Positions 21,707 to 32,408 of a DNA stretch of 64,000 bases are shown here, one piece after another. Origin of the DNA: Halomonas denitrificans (GTDB lineage Bacteria; Pseudomonadota; Gammaproteobacteria; Xanthomonadales; Wenzhouxiangellaceae); the NCBI GenBank assembly GCA_019800895.1, contig JAHVKF010000003.1, positions 682,001 to 746,000 on the forward strand, in the 5' to 3' direction. The notes beneath the pieces were generated by a model. The model ran no database searches. It had not been told where the DNA came from and saw only the letters and a list, made by a program, of their open reading frames with translations. Position 1 is the first letter of the stretch, and each line of letters starts with the position of its first letter. A program made the position numbers and the translations under genes.

Positions 21707-23698
21707 ATGGGCTATTTCGTCACCGGGGGGACCGGGTTCATCGGGCGCAACCTGATCGATCAGTTGCTGAAGCGTCGGGGCACCGTCCACGTCCTGGTCC
21801 GGCGCGGTTCGAAGAAGAAATTCAATGCCCTGGTGGCCGAGCGCTGGGCCGACGACGCCAAGCGCGTCGTGGCCGTCAGCGGGGACCTCACCAAGCCCGC
21901 GCTCGGCGTGTCGAAGGCCGACCGCGAAAAGCTCTCCGGAAAGATCAGGCACGTGTTCCACCTCGCCGCCGTCTACGACCTCTCGGCCAGCGCGGAGTCG
22001 CAGGAAGCCGTGAACATCGACGGCACCCGGCACGCGATGCAGTTCGCCTCGGAGGTCGGCGCGAAGTGCTTCCATCACACCTCGTCGATCGCGGCAGCCG
22101 GGCTCTACCAGGGGCTGTTCCGGGAGGACATGTTCGAGGAGGCCGGCAACCTGGACCATCCGTACTTCCGCACCAAGCACGAGTCCGAGGGCCTGGTCCG
22201 CAAGGAATGCCCGATCCCGTGGCGGATCTATCGACCGGGCATGGTCGTCGGGCATTCGAAAACCGGCGAGATCGACAAGATCGACGGTCCGTACTATTTC
22301 TTCAAGCTGATCCAGAAACTGCGCAGGATGCTGCCGCCCTGGGTGCCGACGCTGGGCCTGGAAGGCGGGCGGGTGAACCTGGTGCCGGTGGATTACGTCG
22401 CCCGGGCCATGGACCACATCGCGCACAAGCCGAAGCTGGACAACACCTGTTTCCACCTGACCGACCCGAACCCGAAGCGGATCGGAGAGGTGATGAACCT
22501 GTTCGCCGAGGCCGCGCACGCGCCCTTGATGTCGATGCGCATCGACGCGCGCCTGTTCAGCTTCATCCCCCAGCCGATCAAGCAGGGCCTGGGCATGCTG
22601 CCGCCGGTCCGGCGCATCATCAACCAGGTGCTCGGCGACCTCGGCATTCCCCGCGACGTGCTGAATTTCTTCAATTACCCGACCAGCTTCGACACCCGGG
22701 AAACAGAGCGTGCGCTGAAGGGGTCGGGCATCGAGGTACCGCGGCTCGAGGACTACGCCTGGGTGCTGTGGGACTACTGGGAGCGTCACCTCGACCCGGA
22801 CCTGTTCATCGACCGGTCCCTGAGCGGCCACGTCCGCGACAAGGTCGTGCTGGTGACCGGCGCCTCGTCCGGAATCGGCAAGGCGACGGCGCTGATGATG
22901 GGCGAGGCGGGCGCGCACGTGCTCCTGATCGCGCGCAAGGAAAGCGAACTGCTCGAGGTCAAGGCCCTGATCGAGAAGGCCGGCGGCAAGGCCACCCACT
23001 ACACCTGCGACCTGGCCGACCTGGAGGCCGCCGACAAGCTGTGCGCCAGGATCACCAAGGCGCACGGCGGCGTCGACGTGCTGGTCAACAACGCGGGCCG
23101 CTCGATCCGCCGCTCGATCAACCTGTCCTACGACCGGTTCCACGACTTCGAACGCTGCATGCAGCTGAACTACTTCGGTGCGCTGAAAATGATCCTCGGC
23201 CTGTTGCCGAAGATGGAGGAGCGGCGCCGGGGTCACATCATCAACATCTCGTCGATCGGCGTCCTGACCAACGCACCGCGCTTTTCCGCCTATGTCGCGT
23301 CCAAGGCCGCACTGGACGCGTTCTCGCGCTGCGCTGCCTCCGAGTTCAACGACACCGGCGTGGCGTTCACGACGATCAACATGCCGTTGGTGCGAACCCC
23401 GATGATCGCGCCGACCAAGATCTATGACTCGGTCCCGACGATCACGCCCGAGGATGCGGCCGACATGGTCAAGCAGGCGGTGATCTACCGGCCCCAGCGC
23501 ATCGCGACCCGGCTCGGGATCTTCGGGCAGGTGCTGCACGGCATCGCGCCGAAGATCTCGGAGATCGTCATGAACTCGGCCTACCGCATGTTCCCGGACT
23601 CGGCCGCCGCACGCGGCGAGCGGCCGGGCAAGGACGAGCGCAGCGTCACGCAGGAGCAGATGGCGTTCGCCCACCTGATGCGCGGCATCCACTGGTAA
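21707..23698 (+). CDS. two-domain fatty acyl-CoA reductase (alcohol-forming type)
   Basis: The 663-residue protein joins two NAD(P)H-binding reductase domains. The N-terminal extended-SDR/FAR-like domain has TGGTGFIG at residues 6-13 and YFRTK as its YxxxK site. The C-terminal classical SDR domain starts at about residue 378 with VLVTGASSGIGK, contains NNAG and NISS, and has YVASK as its active site. From memory, length, domain order and many segments agree closely with the Marinobacter aquaeolei reductase Maqu_2507, which converts fatty acyl-CoA through aldehyde to fatty alcohol. Fatty alcohol is the substrate of the wax ester synthase at 17277. CAGGAGAG before the ATG is a good ribosome site. 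It is divergent from the acyl-CoA-binding protein gene with 148 bases between them. Confidence 0.88.
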   Translation: MGYFVTGGTGFIGRNLIDQLLKRRGTVHVLVRRGSKKKFNALVAERWADDAKRVVAVSGDLTKPALGVSKADREKLSGKIRHVFHLAAVYDLSASAESQEAVNIDGTRHAMQFASEVGAKCFHHTSSIAAAGLYQGLFREDMFEEAGNLDHPYFRTKHESEGLVRKECPIPWRIYRPGMVVGHSKTGEIDKIDGPYYFFKLIQKLRRMLPPWVPTLGLEGGRVNLVPVDYVARAMDHIAHKPKLDNTCFHLTDPNPKRIGEVMNLFAEAAHAPLMSMRIDARLFSFIPQPIKQGLGMLPPVRRIINQVLGDLGIPRDVLNFFNYPTSFDTRETERALKGSGIEVPRLEDYAWVLWDYWERHLDPDLFIDRSLSGHVRDKVVLVTGASSGIGKATALMMGEAGAHVLLIARKESELLEVKALIEKAGGKATHYTCDLADLEAADKLCARITKAHGGVDVLVNNAGRSIRRSINLSYDRFHDFERCMQLNYFGALKMILGLLPKMEERRRGHIINISSIGVLTNAPRFSAYVASKAALDAFSRCAASEFNDTGVAFTTINMPLVRTPMIAPTKIYDSVPTITPEDAADMVKQAVIYRPQRIATRLGIFGQVLHGIAPKISEIVMNSAYRMFPDSAAARGERPGKDERSVTQEQMAFAHLMRGIHW

Positions 23699-23774: not shown

Positions 23775-24341
23775 TCAGCCGTCGTCGTCCTCGCGGCGCG
23801 CGCCGAGCTGGCGTCCGCCGGCGGCCAGCGGCGGGCGGGACTCCTCGGTTGCCCGGCGCAGCCTCCGCTCCGGCGCATCGCGCCGCGCCTCCATGCGATC
23901 GGCGCCCACGGACCGGGTCCGGCCCGGCGCGGGCGGATTCGACGCAGCGTACGGGTAGGCCGGAACGACCGCAACCCTGCGAACCGCGGGCGGGACGTAG
24001 CGTGCCGCGCGCGCTTCGCGGCGTGCCTGCTCGGCGCTCGCCGCACGTCGCGCCGCTCGTTCGGCCTGCACGGATTCCAGGTAGGCCGCGTTGGCCTGCT
24101 TGACCTGTTCCAGCGATTCGGGCGACGCGATGACGCTCAGCGATGCTCGCGGTCGATGCACTTCGGCCGCCTCGTCGCAGGGGCGGTCGCTGAACACCGT
24201 CGTGTCCCCGTCCTTGCAGCGATAGATCGGATCGCCGGCGCCGCCGGCAACCAGCGGCAGGGCCATCAGGCCGACGACCACGCCGACGACGACCCGGCCC
24301 CGAGGCTTCCGTCCGCTCGAGGCGCCGCGGCTCGCGCTCAT
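23775..24341 (-). CDS. small exported DUF4124-domain protein
   Basis: The 188-residue product starts with a basic N-region and one hydrophobic segment (VVVGVVVGLMALPLVAGGAG), a signal peptide or anchor. It is followed by the DUF4124 pattern YRCKDGDTTVFSDRPC near residues 39-55, with two Cys that could pair in the periplasm. The rest is Arg/Ala-rich, probably a coiled coil and a disordered tail. The ATG overlaps the stop of the preceding gene as ATGA, making it the last gene of the lipid cluster. DUF4124 proteins are common in gammaproteobacteria and have no settled function. It converges on the reductase gene with 76 bases between. Confidence 0.7.
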   Translation of the reverse strand: MSASRGASSGRKPRGRVVVGVVVGLMALPLVAGGAGDPIYRCKDGDTTVFSDRPCDEAAEVHRPRASLSVIASPESLEQVKQANAAYLESVQAERAARRAASAEQARREARAARYVPPAVRRVAVVPAYPYAASNPPAPGRTRSVGADRMEARRDAPERRLRRATEESRPPLAAGGRQLGARREDDDG

Positions 24342-26599
24342 TGCCGGGCCTGGCGCGGCCGGCTCTTCGACGCGCGGGGCGGCGGCCCGGCCGAATCGAG
24401 GTGAAGACGTTCGGCCACTGCCGTGGCGACCTCGTCGGTTTCGCCGCGGTAGCGCACGGACGGTACGGCTTCGTCGTCGATCCAGGCGGCCAGGCCGCGC
24501 TCGACGAGGGTGGACTGCCAGGTATCCAGCCCGGTCGGCGGCAGGATCCAACCCCGCTCCACCGCACGTGCGCAGAGATAGGTCCGGCCCTGCTGGGGGC
24601 GAATGCTGCCCCGCTTGTTGTAGCTGGGCGTGAACGCCCGGTCCGCCACTCGTTGGGCGAAGCGGGCCCAGGGCCCCTTGCGGGTGCGGTCCGGCCAGAA
24701 ATACACCGGTGCATCGGCCGACAGCGCATCCTGGAACATGCCCGGTCCGGCCCCGGCGACCAGCAGCGCACCGGCCCGCTCCAGTGCGAGGCCGTAGGGG
24801 TGATCGTCGGCATCGGCCGGCCCGTGGAAGACGTCGGCCCGGCCGTCGACGAGCTTCGCCAGGGTGGCGCCGGATCGCCCGGCGTCGGTCGGCGCGACGA
24901 CCAGGAGGCGAGCATCGCGACGATCGGCCCAGTCCAGCGCGCGCGGTGCCAGCTCTTCGAGCTCCGCCGCGGGCCAGCTGCCCGAAGGGTGGCGGCCGAC
25001 GAGCAGGGCGACGCGACGCGGCGCCTCGAGCCAGGCCTGCCAGGGCTCGGAGTTTCCCGGCGGCCGGAAACCGTCCTCGTGGCCGAAGCCGACCAGCATT
25101 TCGACCCGGTTCGGATGCGGCGGCAGCTGGTGGTGGGTCATGCTGACCACCGCTCCGCCATGCTCGGGTACCCGGCCGGCGTGGCGTCCGATCAGGACCA
25201 GTGCCGGCGGTTGTTCGCAGCGGGCGGCCAGCAGGCGCGCCATCCGGCACGCGGTGCCCCCCGAGGCCACGACCACTGCCGCCTCCTCGAAGGCCTTGCG
25301 CAGCACACCTCGGCCGGCAAGCGCGGTCCAGGCCAGCGAGAGCCACCCGGGCAGCCTCATGCGGACCAGGTCTCGCGCGCCGCGCCGCGCCAGGAGGTGG
25401 CCGAGGTGTTCGGCCTTGCGCACCGGCGCGGCCCGGCGGCCGGCCAGCAGCAGGACCGGCCCGGCTCGCCGAGGTCCGCCGGTCACGACGCGGCGGCGCA
25501 GACCGACCCGGCGCTCCAGCCGCCACCGCGTGCCCGGGTTCATCCGTTCGGCCTGGCGGAACTGCTCGATCCAGAAGTGCAGGGGCCGGCGCGGACGATT
25601 CAATCGGATCCGGACCGGCTCGCGGAGCGAGACGTCGAGCGACTCGCTGGTTCGGAACAGGCGGTCGAGGACCCAGGGCAGGTCGCCGTCGGGCAGCAGT
25701 TCGAGCAGGCCCTCGATGCGGCGGTGCCCGGCCACGGCATGGCCCTCGTTGTCCGGACCGAGCAGGGCCGCCAGGTCGGGACCGTCCGGTCGCGACGTGA
25801 TCCTGAGCGCCACGTCCGGCCAGGCGCTGGTCGGCCGCTTGCTCGAGACCGGAAGGAAGTGCGCATCGTCCGCTTCCCGTTCGAGATCGAACCAAAGGGA
25901 GCCGGTCGGATTGCGGTCGTAGACGTACCAGTCCGGCAAGGGGCGCCAGGGCTGCGTATGAAGCGTGGTGAAGTGGACGCAGGCCGATTCGCCGGGCTCG
26001 TACTCGGCGTCGCGCGCGTTATAGCGTCCGGGCAGTTCGCCCCAGAGGCCAGCGGCGCGTGCCCGAGCCTCGATGCGCTTGCGGGTGGTCTTGAGCACGG
26101 CTTCGCGGTTCCACACCTGGGCCATGCGCTTGCAGTCGACGAGCATCACCGAGGTGTCGTGGTCGTTGATCGACAGGAAGCCCGCGCCGTTCATCTCCCG
26201 GTCGAACAGTTCGGCCGGGTCGGTCAGCCAGACCTGGTCGACGTCGTTGTAGATGGCCCGGCCGGCGTAGTCGCAGAAGTACGGAATCGCGAACCGGTAA
26301 TTCGTGAAGCCGGTGATCCAGAAGCCGCTGATGTAGCCCTTCAGGCCCTTGAGCAGGTAGATCTCGTAGATCCTGCCCGGGTCGCGATGCTTCTCGACGG
26401 ACCAGATGAACGCCCGCTCGGCGCGGAACTGCGCGCGCTCGGAACCGAGAAAGATGCGTACCGGCGGCTTGTCGCTGGGCCGATGGCCGGGGCGCACGCC
26501 GAGGATGATCTTCTCCGGGCGATTGCGTCGCGCCGGCGTCATGTACGGGTCGATGAACGGGGTGAGGCCGCGCAGGATGCGTTGCGCAATCAGCGGCAT
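24338..26599 (-). CDS. fusion of a GT-A-like glycosyltransferase and an ELM1-like domain
   Basis: The 753-residue protein appears to combine two glycosyltransferase-like parts. Residues about 45-260 resemble GT8-like enzymes: AERAFIWSVEKH, YEIYLLKGL, FTNYRFAIPYF, AIYNDVDQVWL with the metal-binding DVD at 119-121, and VMLVDCKRM. Residues about 430-720 resemble the ELM1/COG3660 family, a GT-B-like group often near LPS genes: VVVASGGTACRMARLL, LVLIGRHAG and VSMTHHQLPPHPNRVEML. About 170 residues between them are Arg-rich and unassigned. AAGGAG eight bases before the ATG supports the start, which overlaps the previous gene by 10 bases. It may add sugar to the lipid handled by its neighbours. No membrane segments are obvious. 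Fusion of these two domains is not one I recall. Confidence 0.65.
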   Translation of the reverse strand: MPLIAQRILRGLTPFIDPYMTPARRNRPEKIILGVRPGHRPSDKPPVRIFLGSERAQFRAERAFIWSVEKHRDPGRIYEIYLLKGLKGYISGFWITGFTNYRFAIPYFCDYAGRAIYNDVDQVWLTDPAELFDREMNGAGFLSINDHDTSVMLVDCKRMAQVWNREAVLKTTRKRIEARARAAGLWGELPGRYNARDAEYEPGESACVHFTTLHTQPWRPLPDWYVYDRNPTGSLWFDLEREADDAHFLPVSSKRPTSAWPDVALRITSRPDGPDLAALLGPDNEGHAVAGHRRIEGLLELLPDGDLPWVLDRLFRTSESLDVSLREPVRIRLNRPRRPLHFWIEQFRQAERMNPGTRWRLERRVGLRRRVVTGGPRRAGPVLLLAGRRAAPVRKAEHLGHLLARRGARDLVRMRLPGWLSLAWTALAGRGVLRKAFEEAAVVVASGGTACRMARLLAARCEQPPALVLIGRHAGRVPEHGGAVVSMTHHQLPPHPNRVEMLVGFGHEDGFRPPGNSEPWQAWLEAPRRVALLVGRHPSGSWPAAELEELAPRALDWADRRDARLLVVAPTDAGRSGATLAKLVDGRADVFHGPADADDHPYGLALERAGALLVAGAGPGMFQDALSADAPVYFWPDRTRKGPWARFAQRVADRAFTPSYNKRGSIRPQQGRTYLCARAVERGWILPPTGLDTWQSTLVERGLAAWIDDEAVPSVRYRGETDEVATAVAERLHLDSAGPPPRASKSRPRQARQ

Positions 26600-27522
26600 G
26601 ATGCACGCTCCTTGGAGACGGGTGCCGAGGGATCGAAATGATAGCGCTTCCAGCGGCGCTGGTGCCATGACCACATCGCGGGACGTTCGCGGACCTGGCC
26701 TTCCATGTGCGCGATCACCGCATCCAGGGTGGCGTCCGCGTCGTCGCCTCGAGGCAGCGGATCGCGGACCGTGAACACCCAGTTCGGCTCCCGCTCGAGT
26801 CCGTCGACCGGAACCAGCGGCACGCCCGTGCGATCCGCGAGCTTCAGCACACCGGTCGGCGTGCGTTGCGGCTTGCCGAGAAAGGAGCGGATTTCGCCTT
26901 CCTGCTTGCTGGCCTGGTCCATCAGCACGTAGATCAGGCCGCCGGAGGTCAGCACGCGGAGCATGTGCCGGAAGCTGCGGACCGGGTTGTCCCGATCGAG
27001 AGGAATCGGCGTGGCCCCGGTGGCCGCGATGCATTGTTCCAGGTAGCCGGGCCGCATCCGCCGCGGGTCGCGAAAGACCACGTGCGCCGGACGGCCCTGC
27101 GCGGCCAGCTTGCCCGCCATCAGGATGCCGTTGCCCATGTGCATCCCCAGGAGGATCGCACCCTGGCCGCGCGTTGCGAGTTCATCGAGAAGCGCGGTGT
27201 TGCGGATCTCGACGGCCTCGACCAGCGACCGGGGGTCGGCGCCGGGGCGGGCCAGCGTCAGGGCCTCGAAGATCGCGCCGTCGTTCGTTCGCGCGCCGCC
27301 GAGGAGGATCCGGCTGGCCCGGCGGCGGTCGACGCCGAGGGCGCGTTGGACGTCGCGGCGCAGGCGCCCCCAGAACGGCCAGGCCAGCATCCAGTGAACC
27401 GTGCCGACCGCACGCCCGGTCCGGCGCACGCGCCGGGCCCCTCCGCGCGCTGCCCAGCCGGCCAGCGCCAGCGCCAGCCGCTGCGCCAGGCCGCGCCGGG
27501 CCTTGCGAAGCGACGGTTTCAT
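26590..27522 (-). CDS. LpxL/HtrB-like acyltransferase family protein, atypical active site
   Basis: The 310-residue product resembles the lipid A lauroyl/myristoyl acyltransferase family (LpxL/LpxM). It has an N-terminal hydrophobic/basic helix, the GMHMGNGILM site, VLMDQASKQEG and a C-terminal MWSWHQRRWK. In active members the site is HxxxxD/E (for example HFGNWE). Here H128 is followed by MGNG and then Ile133, so the acidic partner is missing. It may therefore be inactive, use another residue, or have changed chemistry. It is coupled to the ABC transporter gene by ATGA overlap and overlaps the downstream glycosyltransferase gene by 10 bases, which places it in the lipid cluster at the inner membrane. 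Confidence 0.72.
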   Translation of the reverse strand: MKPSLRKARRGLAQRLALALAGWAARGGARRVRRTGRAVGTVHWMLAWPFWGRLRRDVQRALGVDRRRASRILLGGARTNDGAIFEALTLARPGADPRSLVEAVEIRNTALLDELATRGQGAILLGMHMGNGILMAGKLAAQGRPAHVVFRDPRRMRPGYLEQCIAATGATPIPLDRDNPVRSFRHMLRVLTSGGLIYVLMDQASKQEGEIRSFLGKPQRTPTGVLKLADRTGVPLVPVDGLEREPNWVFTVRDPLPRGDDADATLDAVIAHMEGQVRERPAMWSWHQRRWKRYHFDPSAPVSKERASCR

Positions 27523-29378
27523 GACCGGTCGGGGGTTTCGGCGGCCGTGATCACGCCGTCGCGAACCACCAGCAGACGGTCGGCGCGGTCCATCAGCGGC
27601 CGGTGATGGGTGACCGCGAGCAGGGTCAGGCGCTGCTTGAGGTGTTCGATGGTCTCCAGTACGGCGCGTTCGGCCGCCGCGTCGAGGTTGCTGGTCGCCT
27701 CGTCGAGGATCAGCAGGCGGGGCCGGTGGACCAGGGCCCGGGCGATCGCCAGGCGCTGCCGCTGGCCCCCGGACAGCTGGCCTCCGCGCTCGCCGATGCG
27801 CGCGTCCAGACCGCCGGGCAGTTGATCGACGAAGTCGATTGCGTCGGCTTCGGTCAGCGCCCGCCGGGCATCCTCCCGGCTCAGCCCCGGTGCACCCAGC
27901 GTGATGTTCGCGAACACCGAGTCGTTGACCAGCAGGGCTTCCTGCGGCACGTAGCCGATCTGGCGCCGCCACGCAAAGCGGTCGAGCTCGGCCAGGTCGA
28001 CGCCGTCGATGAGGATCCGTCCGCGGTCGGGTTGCAGGAGGCCGGCGACGAGATCGATCAGGGTGGTCTTGCCCGATCCGGACGGGCCCGTGAGCACGGT
28101 CAGGCCGCCGGCCGGGAGGTCCAGCGACTGACCGGTGAACACCGGCTTGCCCGGGTGGCTGAAACCGACGTCGTCGAGCACGATCGAGCGCTCCAGCGTG
28201 GCGGTCCGGCGACCGGTGTTGGCTTCGCGCTCGGCGCGGGCGTCCTCGATCGACTCGTGCAGCGACCAGAATGCACTCTCGGCGATCGCCATGTGCTGCC
28301 ACGCGCGCTGCGCCTTCGACAGGAAGGCCGTGATCCGTGCCAGCAGGAAGATCAGGATCATCACCGCCGACAGCGGCATGTCCAGTTCCACCAGCATCAC
28401 GTACAGGCCGATGGCGGCCAGCACCACCAGCATCGCTTCCTGCAGCGCCTTCATCGCCTCCTTGGAGATGACCTGTTTGCGCAGTGCACGGTTGAGCTGT
28501 TCGGTCTGGCCCGACAGGAGCGTGTCGAACTGGTCTTCGCGCGCCATCGCCTTCAGCGGCTTGATGGCCGCGAGCTGATCGGTCATCACCGACAGCATGT
28601 TGCGCAGCAGCCCGGTCTGCTTGCGGCCGGCGCGACCGGCGATCCGGACCAGGAGATTGAGCCCGCCGAGCACCAGCGCGGACAGGACCAGCGCACCCAG
28701 GGTGACCGGCCAGGAGATCATCAGCGCGACCACGGTGTAGACCATCGCGGTGATGACCTGGGTGGCCATGATCGCGGCCTGGAGATAGCCTTCGGACGCG
28801 CGCTGGGCCTCCGTGGCCATCGCATTGGCCAGGCTGCCGATCGATTTCGACAGGTAATAGCGCCAGCGGCTGGCAACGACCGCGCGGACGAGGTCCAGGC
28901 GCAGATCGGTGGCCACCTGGGCGACCGCATAGCCCACCTGCCGGTTGGCCAGCAACACCACCGCGGCCTTGAGCAGGATCAGCACGATGCCGAAGGCAAG
29001 CAGGTTCGGCAGCGACGCCTCGAGGCCCGCCCAGCCGAACAGGTCACCGATCAGCTGCTCCGGGAGCGATTGTTCGGTCGCCTCGCCGAGCACGGCGCCC
29101 GAGTCGTCCATGGACTGGCTGGACAGGGAGATCATCGACAGCAGCGTCGACAGACCGACCCCGTCGAGGAGGCTGGCCAGCAGAAGCGCCAGCAGCACCG
29201 AAGCGCTCCGGCCGGGATAGCGGCGGAACAGCGACACCAGCATTCGCCCGGTGCCGCCGTCGGCTTGCGCAGAACGGCGCCCGGCCGCACTGGCCACGTC
29301 GGCCGTCGATTCGCCGGTCGAGCCGGGGTTGCCGCGGGTCGAGCGGGACGGCGGGCGGGTCGCTGGATCGGCCTTCAT
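27519..29378 (-). CDS. ABC exporter, fused permease and ATPase (MsbA-like)
   Basis: The 619-residue half-transporter has an N-terminal membrane domain with about six helices (for example ASVLLALLLASLLDGVG near 60-75 and LAFGIVLILLKAAVVLLA near 127-144) and a C-terminal ATPase. Walker A is GPSGSGKTT (431-439), the signature is LSGGQ (535-539), and Walker B is LLILDEATS (555-563). It has the architecture of lipid/oligosaccharide flippases such as MsbA and would work as a homodimer. The first 45 residues are a disordered Arg/Ser/Thr-rich tail. The neighbours are a kinase, a nucleotidyltransferase, acyl- and glycosyltransferase-like genes, all on ATGA overlaps, so the cargo is probably the lipid made by this cluster. 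It ends by overlapping the LpxL-like gene. Confidence 0.88.
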   Translation of the reverse strand: MKADPATRPPSRSTRGNPGSTGESTADVASAAGRRSAQADGGTGRMLVSLFRRYPGRSASVLLALLLASLLDGVGLSTLLSMISLSSQSMDDSGAVLGEATEQSLPEQLIGDLFGWAGLEASLPNLLAFGIVLILLKAAVVLLANRQVGYAVAQVATDLRLDLVRAVVASRWRYYLSKSIGSLANAMATEAQRASEGYLQAAIMATQVITAMVYTVVALMISWPVTLGALVLSALVLGGLNLLVRIAGRAGRKQTGLLRNMLSVMTDQLAAIKPLKAMAREDQFDTLLSGQTEQLNRALRKQVISKEAMKALQEAMLVVLAAIGLYVMLVELDMPLSAVMILIFLLARITAFLSKAQRAWQHMAIAESAFWSLHESIEDARAEREANTGRRTATLERSIVLDDVGFSHPGKPVFTGQSLDLPAGGLTVLTGPSGSGKTTLIDLVAGLLQPDRGRILIDGVDLAELDRFAWRRQIGYVPQEALLVNDSVFANITLGAPGLSREDARRALTEADAIDFVDQLPGGLDARIGERGGQLSGGQRQRLAIARALVHRPRLLILDEATSNLDAAAERAVLETIEHLKQRLTLLAVTHHRPLMDRADRLLVVRDGVITAAETPDRS

Positions 29379-30316
29379 CGCAGGGCTCCGGTGCGCCAGA
29401 GTCGGAACAGCAGGGCCAGCCCGGCCAGGCGGGGATGGCGACGCATGCGTTCGGTCGGTTCGATGCGCACACCGCTGTGGCGTTCGATCTTCCAGACAAG
29501 GTAATCGATCCCGTTGCTGAATGTGCCGGCCGCCTTGAGCAGGCGCAGGACGTTGCAGGTCCGCCCCCAGACCTTGCGCAGCGTCCAGCGCGACCGGCCG
29601 CGGAGCCGCCGCAGCCCGCCGACCCGGATTCGGAACCGATCGTCATCGAGACGATCGACGTCCTCGAGGCCGGTAAGCGCACGTGCGCTGAGGTCGCTCC
29701 AGAACGCGGGGTCGCGGTCGATCAGCGCCTCGGCGGCGCCGGCCGGTTCGGGCCGCAGTTCGCAGCCGTAGGTGGCCCGGATCGAGCGGATCCAGAAGTC
29801 ACGGGCATTCAAGGTGCCGTTGCCCAGCGGCAGCCCCTCGCGGGCGAAGGTGCGGGCGGCGGCGGCGCGGCAGGCCGCGATTCGTCGAGCCGACTCCGGT
29901 CCCTTCGCTCGGACCAGGCGGCAGGGCTGGGTGAAGCGCGCCCAGAAATAGGCATCGAGGCCACCGGCGGTCCGCCGGGCCAGGGTGGCTTCGCTGACGA
30001 TGATGAACTTGCACCGCAGCCGAGCCGATTCCGAACCGGCCTCGAGGTAGTAGACGTTCGGCGGGAGCAGGGCGTTGAACAGCGCCGAGGGACCGGTGCC
30101 GTGGACGGCGCGATAGGAGTCCACGACGGCCATCAGGTCGACCAGGCCATTTCCGAGATCGGCGTTCCTGCGGCATGAGCCGTACAGGACGATGGCGCGC
30201 AACGCCGAGCCGCAGCGCGCCTCGATCGCATCGAGCAGCGGTTCCAGGCCGGGAGGCGGCGCGACGGCCAGGTCGTCGGCCATCAGCTGCACCAGCGCGT
30301 TGCCGGATTCGCTCAT
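29375..30316 (-). CDS. Tam41-like phosphatidate cytidylyltransferase candidate
   Basis: The 313-residue protein is predicted soluble or peripheral. Its N-terminal half fits the nucleotidyltransferase pattern of the Tam41/Mmp37 family, which makes CDP-diacylglycerol from phosphatidate and CTP. There is a GS pair in VLYGSCRRN (G46-S47), spaced acidic residues in VDLMAVVD (D60, D66), His72, N81, YY at 89-90, then KFIIVS (K103) and DAYFWARFTQP, in the order expected for that family. It lies directly after a diacylglycerol kinase-like gene that would provide phosphatidate, and both junctions are ATGA overlaps. The match is from motif order by eye, so another nucleotidyltransferase function remains possible. 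No CDP-DAG-using synthase is seen in the cluster. Confidence 0.6.
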   Translation of the reverse strand: MSESGNALVQLMADDLAVAPPPGLEPLLDAIEARCGSALRAIVLYGSCRRNADLGNGLVDLMAVVDSYRAVHGTGPSALFNALLPPNVYYLEAGSESARLRCKFIIVSEATLARRTAGGLDAYFWARFTQPCRLVRAKGPESARRIAACRAAAARTFAREGLPLGNGTLNARDFWIRSIRATYGCELRPEPAGAAEALIDRDPAFWSDLSARALTGLEDVDRLDDDRFRIRVGGLRRLRGRSRWTLRKVWGRTCNVLRLLKAAGTFSNGIDYLVWKIERHSGVRIEPTERMRRHPRLAGLALLFRLWRTGALR

Positions 30317-31317
30317 GGCCGCAGGAATCCGAGCGAGGGACCCGGCTCGACGCGCAGCGGGTAGGCCGGATCGAGGTCGAATTCCTGGCCGTCCAGGACG
30401 ATCGAGTCGATTCCCTCGATCGTGAGCCGGCGGCAGTGGCCCGACAGGTAACCGGTCGCCGGCGACATGTCGTCGCTGAACCGGCCGCGGACGATCGTGG
30501 CCATCCGACGGCGCCAGCGCTGCGCTGCGGCCGAGATCGCGGTCACCCGCAGGTCGCCGTCGCCGCGTTCGGCGTAGGGCCGAGCGTGGCTGTCGTCCAG
30601 GCCCAGGGTAGTCATGAGCAGGAAGCGCATCGGCGCGTCGAGCGTGCCCAGCGCCTCGGCGTCGAGGCGGAGATGCCGGGCCGTGAACGGTTCGCGGCCG
30701 GTCAACAGGGCCGGCAGCTGGCGGAGCACGCCGAAGGCAGAGGCCAGATGGTGATTGCGCCTCCAGCCCGGTCGCGCGTTTCGCCACCGGTGGACGTTGC
30801 GAATCACCTGGTCGAGCATCGCGCCGGCGAGGAAGAAGCCGTGTTGCGTATCGATCGACGGGTGGCGGACCACCAGCGTGCGGCGCTCCAGGCGAGCGGC
30901 CTCGCGTCCGTCGTCGAGCAACCGGTCCAGGGTGGCGAGGAAGTGGGCCCGCGTGCCGAGATCGGCGGCCACGTAGTTGGTCCTGCCGGCGCTGAGCACC
31001 AGCAGTTCGGGCAGCTGCTCGGCGGGCAGGTGGCGGGCCAGGTAGCTGACCGCACCCTGCAAGGTGCCGTCACCGCCGGCCAGGACCAGCGTGTCGACGC
31101 CTCCTTCGATCGCATCGGCCAGCGCCGCTTCGATCGCCGGGAGGTCGGTGACGCGGTAGGCCCGGCCGCCGGCCTCGGCGATCCTCGCCTCGGTGCGTTC
31201 GGCCCGGTCGCGCAGGCTCATCCGGAAGCTCAGGGGGTTGATCAGCGCGGCCAGGCGCCGGCGGTCGGGCGCTGCGTCGGCGGCCGTTCCGGCCCGTGCG
31301 TCGCGGGTGGTCTTCAT
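30313..31317 (-). CDS. diacylglycerol kinase-family lipid kinase
   Basis: The 334-residue product matches the DAGK/YegS/sphingosine-kinase fold. The nucleotide loop VLAGGDGTLQG holds GGDGT at residues 81-85, and INPLS near 26-30 is the usual first strand. The second conserved loop, normally a PxGTxND form, reads SAGRTNYVA (109-117), a variation. Family members phosphorylate diacylglycerol or related lipids with ATP, here giving phosphatidate that the next gene could activate with CTP. The ATG at 31317 lies 8 bases after the desaturase stop and has only a weak ribosome site; the gene's end overlaps the next start by ATGA. No signal peptide is present. Confidence 0.75.
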   Translation of the reverse strand: MKTTRDARAGTAADAAPDRRRLAALINPLSFRMSLRDRAERTEARIAEAGGRAYRVTDLPAIEAALADAIEGGVDTLVLAGGDGTLQGAVSYLARHLPAEQLPELLVLSAGRTNYVAADLGTRAHFLATLDRLLDDGREAARLERRTLVVRHPSIDTQHGFFLAGAMLDQVIRNVHRWRNARPGWRRNHHLASAFGVLRQLPALLTGREPFTARHLRLDAEALGTLDAPMRFLLMTTLGLDDSHARPYAERGDGDLRVTAISAAAQRWRRRMATIVRGRFSDDMSPATGYLSGHCRRLTIEGIDSIVLDGQEFDLDPAYPLRVEPGPSLGFLRP

Positions 31318-31325
31318 CGAGGAGC

Positions 31326-32408
31326 TCAGCCGCCGGTCTGCCAGCGCCGCAGCACCGTTGCATCGCCGCGCGACGACCAGCTGCCGCGCAGCAGGCGACC
31401 GACGACGGCGAAGTAATTGTCGTGGTTGCTGCGGCGGTAGGGGTGATCGGCAGGCAGTCCGGCGAGCAGGCGGCGGTGCGCCCGGCCCAGCCGGTGGTAG
31501 GGCAGGCCGGGCAGCAGGTGGTGCAGCGCGTGATAGCGCAGGCCGACGGGGAAGAACCACGCCGTCAGCCAGGTCTGTCCCGTGAGATTGATCGAATCGT
31601 CGAGCTGGGCCAGGTGGCCGCGCGCATCGCCCGAGTGGCCGTAGCCGTGCGCGGCGAGATTGCGGAACCAGTTCAGGCCGATCGCCGTGGCCAGCAGGGC
31701 CCAGGCCATCAGCCAGTGGGTGCCGGTCATCGGACCGAACACGGTCAGGAGGACCAGCCCCGCCAGCCACGCGAAGCAGAACCATTCCGAGCGGACCAGT
31801 TCGCGCTCGTGGCGGCCCGGAAACCGCTTGCGATAGTAGGGGTTGGTGATCGCCGCCGAAGCCCGGAGCAGCAGCCATTCGCGCAGTCGCGACGATGCGT
31901 GCGACAGCGGGCCGAGCAGGCCGAAGCGCAGCACGGCCAGCAGCGGCAGCAGCGGTATCTGGGCGAGGTACTTGATCGTCTCGCGCGGCGGCATGGCGGC
32001 CAGCGGCAGGTATTCGCCGTCGTCCGGGGTGCCGAAGTGCAGATGGCTGTGGTGCTCGACGTGATTGCGGTAGAGCACCCAGGGCATCAGGAGCGGAAAG
32101 CCCACGAGAAGGTTCCAGGCCCACTTGAACGATTCCATCTCGCCGGTCCGGAAGTGGACGATCTCGTGGATGAAGGTCCCGGTCCGGAAGAACGCGATCG
32201 CCGCCAGCACCATCGCGCTCCCCTGCACCAGAGGGCCCGCCGGGTCGATGAAGTAGATGGCCGTCAGGGCCCAGGCGATCGACGTGGTGACCATGAAATC
32301 GAGCCAGTAGAGCGCCGGTTTCCGGTCGAACAGGTCGTGCACGAGACCCTGCGCCTGGCGAACGGCGGCACGGTCGTCGGGCATCGTGGCCGAGGTGCGT
32401 TGATCCAT
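31326..32408 (-). CDS. membrane fatty acid desaturase-family protein
   Basis: The 360-residue integral membrane protein has the three His boxes of di-iron membrane desaturases/hydroxylases: HEIVH at 81-85, HVEHHSHLH at 116-124 and HALHH at 293-297. A further conserved His lies in NLAAHGYGH near 254. Hydrophobic segments at about 40-58, 62-77, 98-112, 150-168 and 212-247 flank them. The family introduces double bonds or hydroxyl groups into acyl chains using O2. It is the first gene of the coupled lipid cluster, so its substrate may be the acyl part of the cluster's product. A -10-like TAGAAT ends six bases before the ATG, suggesting a leaderless transcript; an in-frame ATG nine codons in is an alternative start. 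Confidence 0.85.
   Translation of the reverse strand: MDQRTSATMPDDRAAVRQAQGLVHDLFDRKPALYWLDFMVTTSIAWALTAIYFIDPAGPLVQGSAMVLAAIAFFRTGTFIHEIVHFRTGEMESFKWAWNLLVGFPLLMPWVLYRNHVEHHSHLHFGTPDDGEYLPLAAMPPRETIKYLAQIPLLPLLAVLRFGLLGPLSHASSRLREWLLLRASAAITNPYYRKRFPGRHERELVRSEWFCFAWLAGLVLLTVFGPMTGTHWLMAWALLATAIGLNWFRNLAAHGYGHSGDARGHLAQLDDSINLTGQTWLTAWFFPVGLRYHALHHLLPGLPYHRLGRAHRRLLAGLPADHPYRRSNHDNYFAVVGRLLRGSWSSRGDATVLRRWQTGG

Follow-up and report, generated by a model that had tools for sequence, protein, structure and literature searches.

What a cluster of seven genes does in Halomonas denitrificans is the question raised by the window, as we call the whole 64,000-nucleotide stretch of DNA analysed here (G000:C3:682001-746000 in our numbering of genomes and contigs, within a genome of 3.2 Mb). 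The genes lie together on the minus strand at 23775-32408 and encode a desaturase-family protein, a lipid kinase, a nucleotidyltransferase resembling Tam41, an MsbA-like ATP-binding cassette (ABC) exporter, an LpxL-like protein, a fusion of a GT8-like glycosyltransferase (GT) with ELM1 (GT/ELM1) and a DUF4124-like protein. The original prediction, made from the letters of the window, was a modified (glyco)phospholipid as the product. Our analysis indicates that the cluster probably decorates and exports a ceramide-based lipid and that it is most likely a variant of the bacterial phosphosphingolipid synthesis known from Caulobacter. The predicted conserved operon for making and exporting a lipid, with a kinase, cytidine triphosphate (CTP)-type activation, glycosyl transfer and flipping, is upheld, but the backbone is most likely ceramide, because the Tam41-like gene occurs, among 151 genomes, only where ceramide genes were found and because the kinase and Tam41-like genes take the position of CpgB and CpgC of Caulobacter.

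The ceramide locus of the window's genome is complete and lies some 240 kb away from the cluster. Its serine palmitoyltransferase (Spt) gene (G000:C3:457917-459101, 56% identity to the query) scored 588 bits, above the cut-off of 500 of the NCBI serine palmitoyltransferase equivalog (NF047599), and beside it lie the genes of an acyl carrier protein (AcpR), CerR, AasR, CerS, a MobA-like nucleotidyltransferase and two LptF/LptG proteins (L160:15405-17485, 151 and 178 bits for PF03739). In the set of 151 related genomes, the window's included, co-occurrence was strict: Spt and CerS were present in all 38 genomes that carry the Tam41-like gene, versus 4 (Spt) and 5 (CerS) of the 113 others. The GT/ELM1 gene was present in 23 of the 151, all of them Tam41-like-positive and none with CpgA, and both the Tam41-like and GT/ELM1 genes were absent from the 11 members of the family in which Spt and CerS both went undetected. 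Spt was counted at 53% identity or more, including fragments in G003, G036 and G146; hits of about 35%, present in nearly all genomes, were treated as being of the KBL/BioF type, and fragments scoring below these could be missed among the matches listed. The CerS count includes fragments in G011 and G039 and a divergent copy in G001 with one in-frame stop, and the GT/ELM1 count, reduced from 25 matched genomes by dropping weak GT-only hits in G044 and G065, includes a C-terminal fragment in G024 and residues 1-417 in G036.

Furthermore, in four relatives (L053, L054, L055 and L171) the cluster follows on directly from the ceramide genes, and this joining speaks more strongly than any other evidence for an action of the cluster on ceramide. 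The two loci are about 6 kb apart in L170, L172 and L173, and the fetched Spt stretch of 14 other operon-bearing genomes, the window's included, does not contain the cluster (G003 and G036 are left out of this count). The joining also bears on the alternative that the cluster makes a glycerol-based glycophospholipid, in which the kinase would form phosphatidic acid, the Tam41-like protein would be a second cytidine diphosphate diacylglycerol (CDP-DAG) synthase and the remaining proteins would decorate and export the product. This alternative accounts for the DAGK_cat domain of the kinase, for CDP-DAG synthases being the closest solved folds to the Tam41-like protein, and for the finding that CpgB phosphorylates diacylglycerol in vitro with comparable activity (PMC10331486). 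With Spt and CerS in every one of the 38 Tam41-like-positive genomes and the cluster joined to the ceramide locus in four of the relatives, we regard a glycerol backbone as unlikely.

Two side observations concern the ceramide genes themselves. In G001, of the window's genus, no CerS was found where it normally stands, after AasR and before the MobA-like gene (L164:5430-6105); the divergent copy, interrupted by one in-frame TAG, is on a different contig (G001:C119:17572-18693). L177 (G124, same order) has Spt, CerR, AasR and a nearby CerS with no Tam41-like gene, that is, ceramide without a CpgC-like step.

The Tam41-like protein was recognized through its relatives and its predicted structure. 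As a single sequence it gave nothing useful against Pfam, NCBIfam or PDB and did not match PF09139 (Tam41); 8 of its 31 relatives matched PF09139 (E up to 1; best 4.5e-6), and a profile of the 31 retrieved 6ig2/6ig4 (Tam41 of S. pombe) from PDB at E 4e-4. YGS (45-47), D60 and K103 were invariant in the alignment of the 31 sequences. The structure model (predicted local distance difference test, pLDDT, 91.1) superposed on 7ecd, a Firmicutes Tam41 with CTP-Mg, with Z 18.2 and a root mean square deviation (rmsd) of 3.4 over 226 aligned residues, and on 6ig4 with Z 15.4 and an rmsd of 4.6 over 225. Tam41 was top among the listed folds, and the next family, the aminoglycoside nucleotidyltransferases, reached Z 9.4. 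On this model the fold is that of Tam41, and we propose that the protein would make CDP-ceramide from ceramide-1-phosphate. When PF09139 was searched against 6 gene-bearing genomes and 14 controls, the Caulobacter control genome was unmatched, yet only one of the 6 genomes known to carry the gene was matched. For the kinase, YegS/DgkB-type models matched weakly (E 4e-5 or worse) and the sequence alone gave only weak PDB matches; its GGDGT motif is present in 22 of 23 aligned sequences and reads AGDGT in L045.

The kinase and the Tam41-like protein appear, from gene position and published domain notes rather than from comparison with Caulobacter sequences, to be the counterparts of CpgB and CpgC. 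CC_1160 (CpgB) of Caulobacter acts as a ceramide kinase. CC_1161 (CpgC) is required for ceramide phosphoglycerate (CPG), carries an InterPro domain of CDP-DAG synthases and, according to the authors, might form a nucleoside diphosphate-activated ceramide (PMC10331486, PMC11324152). CpgB and CpgC are needed for CPG, and CpgA and CpgD for CPG2 (PMC12275187). The original prediction knew of no described pathway with the gene set of the cluster. Within the literature covered there is indeed no complete described set that matches, and an open-access search found no paper with "CDP-ceramide" and nothing joining sphingolipid, serine palmitoyltransferase, ELM1 and bacteria, while two papers came up for Wenzhouxiangella together with sphingolipids; the kinase/Tam41-like pair, on the other hand, corresponds by position to CpgB-CpgC.

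The order of the cluster is conserved in the family. Of the 38 genomes with the Tam41-like gene, 28 belong to the window's family, and 23 of these have the operon, giving 22 family loci other than the window (L034-L055), for which denominators are the contigs reaching that far. The kinase directly precedes the Tam41-like gene in 22/22, the ABC gene follows it in 20/20, and the LpxL-like and GT/ELM1 genes follow in 18/18. NTGA-type overlaps were found at the kinase/Tam41 (21/22), Tam41/ABC (15/20) and ABC/LpxL (13/18) junctions, less often between desaturase and kinase (2/18) and never between LpxL and GT (0/18). A lack of conservation in relatives was one outcome that the original prediction had named as refuting it; the set is in fact conserved, beyond what chance would give. 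Five other genomes of the family (G007, G008, G009, G012 and G013) have the Tam41-like gene in another arrangement, with no GT/ELM1 gene, behind an LptF/LptG pair and CerS (L060, L064, L066, L067 and L070), and the kinase is close by in L066 and L070 and, on another contig, in L068. Up to about 2.5 kb downstream of the lipid kinase, in two other genera of the family, lies a gene (L066:13669-14988 and L068:3129-4373) that we take to read like arginine deiminase.

Outside the family, we compared 68 loci, taken from genome-contig loci that are the best-scoring 80 of at least 582 and not a random sample. The Tam41-like gene stands directly behind a lipid kinase in 56 of the 68; CerS is within the stretch in 41, and 45 hold one or more of CerS, Spt and AasR. 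When further pathway genes are allowed to count, the number of loci with one or more of them rises to 61, an upper figure compared with the firmer 41 for CerS, since AasR, LptF/LptG and nucleoside triphosphate (NTP)-transferase hits at E 1e-5 may include ordinary relatives. L061, L102 and L146 share the order CerS, MobA-like protein, NTP transferase, LptF-like, LptG-like, CDP-alcohol phosphotransferase, kinase and Tam41-like protein, with Spt, CerR and an acyl-AMP ligase next on the opposite strand.

The ABC exporter scored 241 bits to the MsbA model TIGR02203, below the equivalog cut-off of 602, and a separate MsbA elsewhere in the genome scored 683. In 6 of the 68 loci outside the family, a homologue of the exporter (41-48% over 486-574 residues) is found close to the Tam41-like gene, in some of them beside Spt (L129, L149 and L095); others are in L068 and in L208, there about 7 kb from CerS. 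In other phyla the homologues stand beside Spt or near CpgA (L129, L149, L095 and L092) with the rest of the operon not there. The homologues beside sphingolipid genes score far higher to the cluster exporter than to the genome's own MsbA, and we propose from these sequence relationships that the exporter may be a sphingolipid flippase. The LpxL-like gene has the lowest score among the three LpxL-family genes of the genome, the other two being stronger. As separate MsbA and LpxL genes with better scores exist elsewhere in the genome, the MsbA-like and LpxL-like genes of the cluster are extra copies.

The same genes would also suit an accessory lipid A or core pathway, in which the cluster modifies or exports lipopolysaccharide (LPS) with its MsbA-like and LpxL-like proteins and its glycosyltransferase folds. 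This is very improbable, because a separate MsbA and two LpxL-family genes with higher scores are present in the genome, and because the Tam41-like and GT/ELM1 genes are missing from the 11 family members mentioned above, which are presumably still LPS makers.

In the structure model of the GT/ELM1 protein (pLDDT 80.6), residues 44-249 form a GT8-like GT-A domain (Z 15.9 to 3tzt, GT8) and residues 378-738 a GT-B domain (Z about 15-17 to UDP-GlcNAc 2-epimerases and MurG-type folds), with a middle domain between the halves. On the strength of these two glycosyltransferase-type folds, we propose that the protein would be a double glycosyltransferase. Among 48 distant genomes bearing the Tam41-like gene, 8 had a GT/ELM1 match, one of them to the ELM1 half only. 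In five of the other seven the gene is in or near sphingolipid genes (L207, L210, L211, L213/L214 and L215), and in L210 and L211 it is beside Spt with the rest of the operon not there. Four distant homologues scored 158-208 bits for PF06258 and matched GT8 weakly, and two of the four had a weak methyltransferase match in the middle region. Homologues of the exporter and of GT/ELM1 are thus found repeatedly with sphingolipid genes, though in a minority of loci, in records of Nitrospirota, Desulfobacterota and Proteobacteria.

This recurrence matters for a further alternative, namely that the pathway yields plain CPG with its single phosphoglycerate and that the ABC, LpxL-like and GT/ELM1 genes are mere neighbours serving another envelope glycolipid. 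It agrees with the requirement, in Caulobacter, of CpgB and CpgC for CPG and of CpgA and CpgD for CPG2 (PMC12275187), and with the retention of a CC_1153-like MobA protein and of the LptF/LptG pair. The three genes are, however, locked to the kinase/Tam41 pair in order and spacing, and in other phyla GT/ELM1 lies beside Spt (L210 and L211) and the ABC gene beside Spt or near CpgA, which makes this alternative rather unlikely. GT/ELM1 and CpgA/CpgD do not overlap in any of the 151 relatives, and five Tam41-like-positive genomes have neither (G008, G009, G012, G013 and G072). The idea that GT/ELM1 simply replaces CpgA/CpgD was rejected, as both coincide further away (L210 with L116; L215); they also coincide in L207, in a copy of the GT half only with an open frame of 472 aa.

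For the desaturase, the three histidine boxes are present in 19 of 19 aligned sequences, the gene has Spt on one side and the kinase on the other in L054, L055 and L171, and the protein may modify ceramide chains. Caulobacter, too, has a desaturase/hydroxylase of the DesA family, whose target is the amide-linked chain (PMC11324152). The DUF4124-like protein has, by eye, a hydrophobic N-terminus and is apparently secreted; of the 18 family loci reaching that far, 12 have a homologue of it behind GT/ELM1. Some of these homologues sit behind a gene of the 2-oxoglutarate (2OG)-Fe(II) oxygenase family, which is behind GT/ELM1 in 13 family loci and adjoins it in L143 (for example L041:3945-4877, L079:8899-9666 and L143:16289-16999; one member scored 29.1 versus 27 bits). 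This oxygenase perhaps hydroxylates the lipid.

In the mechanism that we propose, ceramide would be made by Spt, AcpR, CerR, AasR and CerS of the separate locus of the same genome and phosphorylated by the CpgB-like kinase. With CTP, the Tam41-like (CpgC-like) protein would then turn ceramide-1-phosphate into an activated form, probably CDP-ceramide, so that a head group can be attached, and the GT8-like/ELM1 fusion would add one or two sugars. A chain could be modified by the desaturase-family enzyme, and acylation by the LpxL-like protein is possible. Flipping of the product would fall to the MsbA-like ABC exporter, and the LptF/LptG-type pair beside CerS would carry it to the outer membrane. 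The analysis shows the content and order of the genes, their co-occurrence and linkage, and the folds; from these we infer the reactions, all of them, as well as which way the lipid is transported and what the product is. A bolder version of it, which we offer tentatively and expect rather to fail than to hold, is that Wenzhouxiangellaceae make an LPS-like phosphosphingolipid via CDP-ceramide, with a disaccharide added by the fusion, acylation by the divergent LpxL-family protein and export by a dedicated MsbA-like flippase and the LptF/LptG-type pair. This would be a second outer-membrane lane parallel to that of LPS, with the exporter and glycosyltransferase common to several phyla.

Several observations weigh against a ceramide-based product or against parts of the scheme. 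The Fisher values for the co-occurrence, below 1e-29 over the 151 genomes and 3e-8 for Spt within the window's family alone, ignore common descent. Spt occurs without the Tam41-like gene in G028, G031 and G041 (84, 83 and 65% complete) and in G124, and CerS in these four and in G029. Clear orthologues of CpgA (a CDP-alcohol phosphotransferase) and CpgD (a CDP-glycerate synthase) are in the same 10 of 151 genomes and not in the window's; for CpgD, 101 genomes matched at 1e-5, and a match was called an orthologue only if its identity reached 42% and its E value was below 1e-58, as in 10 genomes, weaker NTP-transferase hits being uncounted. A possible candidate for the missing head-group transferase, judged by its family, is the PgsA/cardiolipin-synthase-like protein at G000:C3:250348, which with PgsA and PssA makes up the three PF01066 proteins of the genome. 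Identity to the query is only about 28% for the LptF/LptG pair next to CerS, which would be a second pair besides the housekeeping LptF/LptG. No kinase was detected in 12 of the 68 loci outside the family, and no sphingolipid gene was found in the fetched stretch around GT/ELM1 in L209 and L212, two of the seven distant genomes. The desaturase adjoins the cluster in 18 of the 22 family loci and not in L034, L037, L038 and L053.

The LpxL-like protein is a further weak point. HX4(D/E) is the catalytic motif of LpxL/HtrB acyltransferases, and in the alignment its histidine is kept in 19 of 19 sequences but its acid is replaced by I, V or L in all 19. The original prediction had assigned acyl modification to the cluster; with the acid of the motif absent, acyl transfer by the LpxL-like protein is less certain than was assumed, and the protein is a possible acyltransferase.

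The layout of the cluster is exactly as first described, in the number and order of the genes and in their junctions, with four ATGA overlaps (30313-30316, 29375-29378, 27519-27522 and 24338-24341), a 10-base overlap between the LpxL-like and GT/ELM1 genes (26590-26599) and an 8-base gap between the desaturase and the kinase (31318-31325). The family labels then given fared unevenly: desaturase, DAGK_cat, ABC and Lip_A_acyltrans are above the Pfam cut-offs, whereas ELM1 and DUF4124 are below them and the Tam41-like protein has no Pfam match. In the window's own genus, the cluster is flanked on one side by Ffh/CcsA genes, sometimes together with CNNM, and on the other by a short-chain dehydrogenase/reductase (SDR) gene; no such flanks were found in L039-L055, which belong to other genera. 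In the window, a double SDR protein of the PRK07201 type (21707-23698; 1003 versus 549 bits) faces the cluster, and its position is kept in four own-genus loci (L034-L037).

Table 1. Genes of the cluster in the window, with the matches on which each family assignment is based.
Gene product	Position in window	Strand	Basis of assignment
Membrane fatty-acid desaturase/hydroxylase family	31326-32408 (alternative start 32384)	-	PF00487, 89.8 bits
Lipid kinase, CpgB position	30313-31317	-	PF00781 (DAGK_cat), 41.8 bits
Tam41-like CTP-type nucleotidyltransferase, CpgC position	29375-30316	-	Profile of relatives and structure model
MsbA-related ABC exporter	27519-29378	-	PF00664 and PF00005 (ABC matches of 119.5 and 57.5 bits)
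LpxL/HtrB-superfamily protein	26590-27522	-	PF03279 (Lip_A_acyltrans), 59.1 bits (cut-off 22.3)
GT8-like/ELM1 fusion	24338-26599	-	PF06258, 25.4 bits (below cut-off 27); structure model
DUF4124-like protein	23775-24341	-	PF13511, 14.2 bits (below cut-off 22)

This study could help with two steps of bacterial sphingolipid synthesis that are left unexplained in the published texts as available, namely the CpgC step from ceramide-1-phosphate to CPG (PMC12275187) and the route of sphingolipids to the outer membrane (PMC11324152). The CpgB-/CpgC-like pair is kept without CpgA and CpgD, which makes the idea of CDP-ceramide testable with two proteins, and the cluster supplies a candidate sphingolipid flippase and a candidate sphingolipid glycosyltransferase. 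The family also includes members with and without the pathway and is thereby a natural comparison set.

Compared with known systems, the Tam41-like protein shares with Tam41, the mitochondrial and Firmicutes CDP-DAG synthase (6ig2, 6ig4 and 7ecd), the predicted fold, the aligned YGS, aspartate and lysine positions and the character of a CTP-type nucleotidyltransferase, but is only about 14-15% identical to it and is tied to ceramide genes. The cluster exporter is of the same ABC exporter superfamily as the lipid A flippase MsbA (TIGR02203), but is well under its equivalog cut-off in a genome that encodes a true MsbA elsewhere. ELM1 (PF06258) and GT8 glycosyltransferases are both represented in the cluster, as a GT-B-like and a GT-A domain, but are there joined in a single protein that also has a middle domain and whose gene occurs within ceramide-gene clusters or close to them. 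The glycosphingolipid that Caulobacter makes under phosphate limitation with two glycosyltransferases (PMC6445935; mentioned in PMC11324152) likewise carries sugar on a ceramide-based lipid; the likeness is by description, and the text of PMC6445935 as available gives no link to phosphorylation. The closest counterpart is the Caulobacter stretch CC_1152 to CC_1168, of which CC_1152 to CC_1165 equal in gene content the full distant stretches L061, L102 and L146. Compared without direct sequence alignment, this stretch and the window's genome share the ceramide genes, a lipid kinase beside a CDP-DAG-synthase-like protein, a CC_1153-like MobA protein, an LptF/LptG-type pair and a desaturase/hydroxylase. 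Caulobacter has CpgA and CpgD, of which the window's genome has no clear orthologues, and another potential flippase, CC_1166, which we set beside the cluster exporter by description only. The window's genome, unlike Caulobacter, divides its genes between two separate loci, the ceramide locus and the cluster, and adds to the Caulobacter set the MsbA-like ABC exporter, the LpxL-like protein and the GT8-like/ELM1 fusion.

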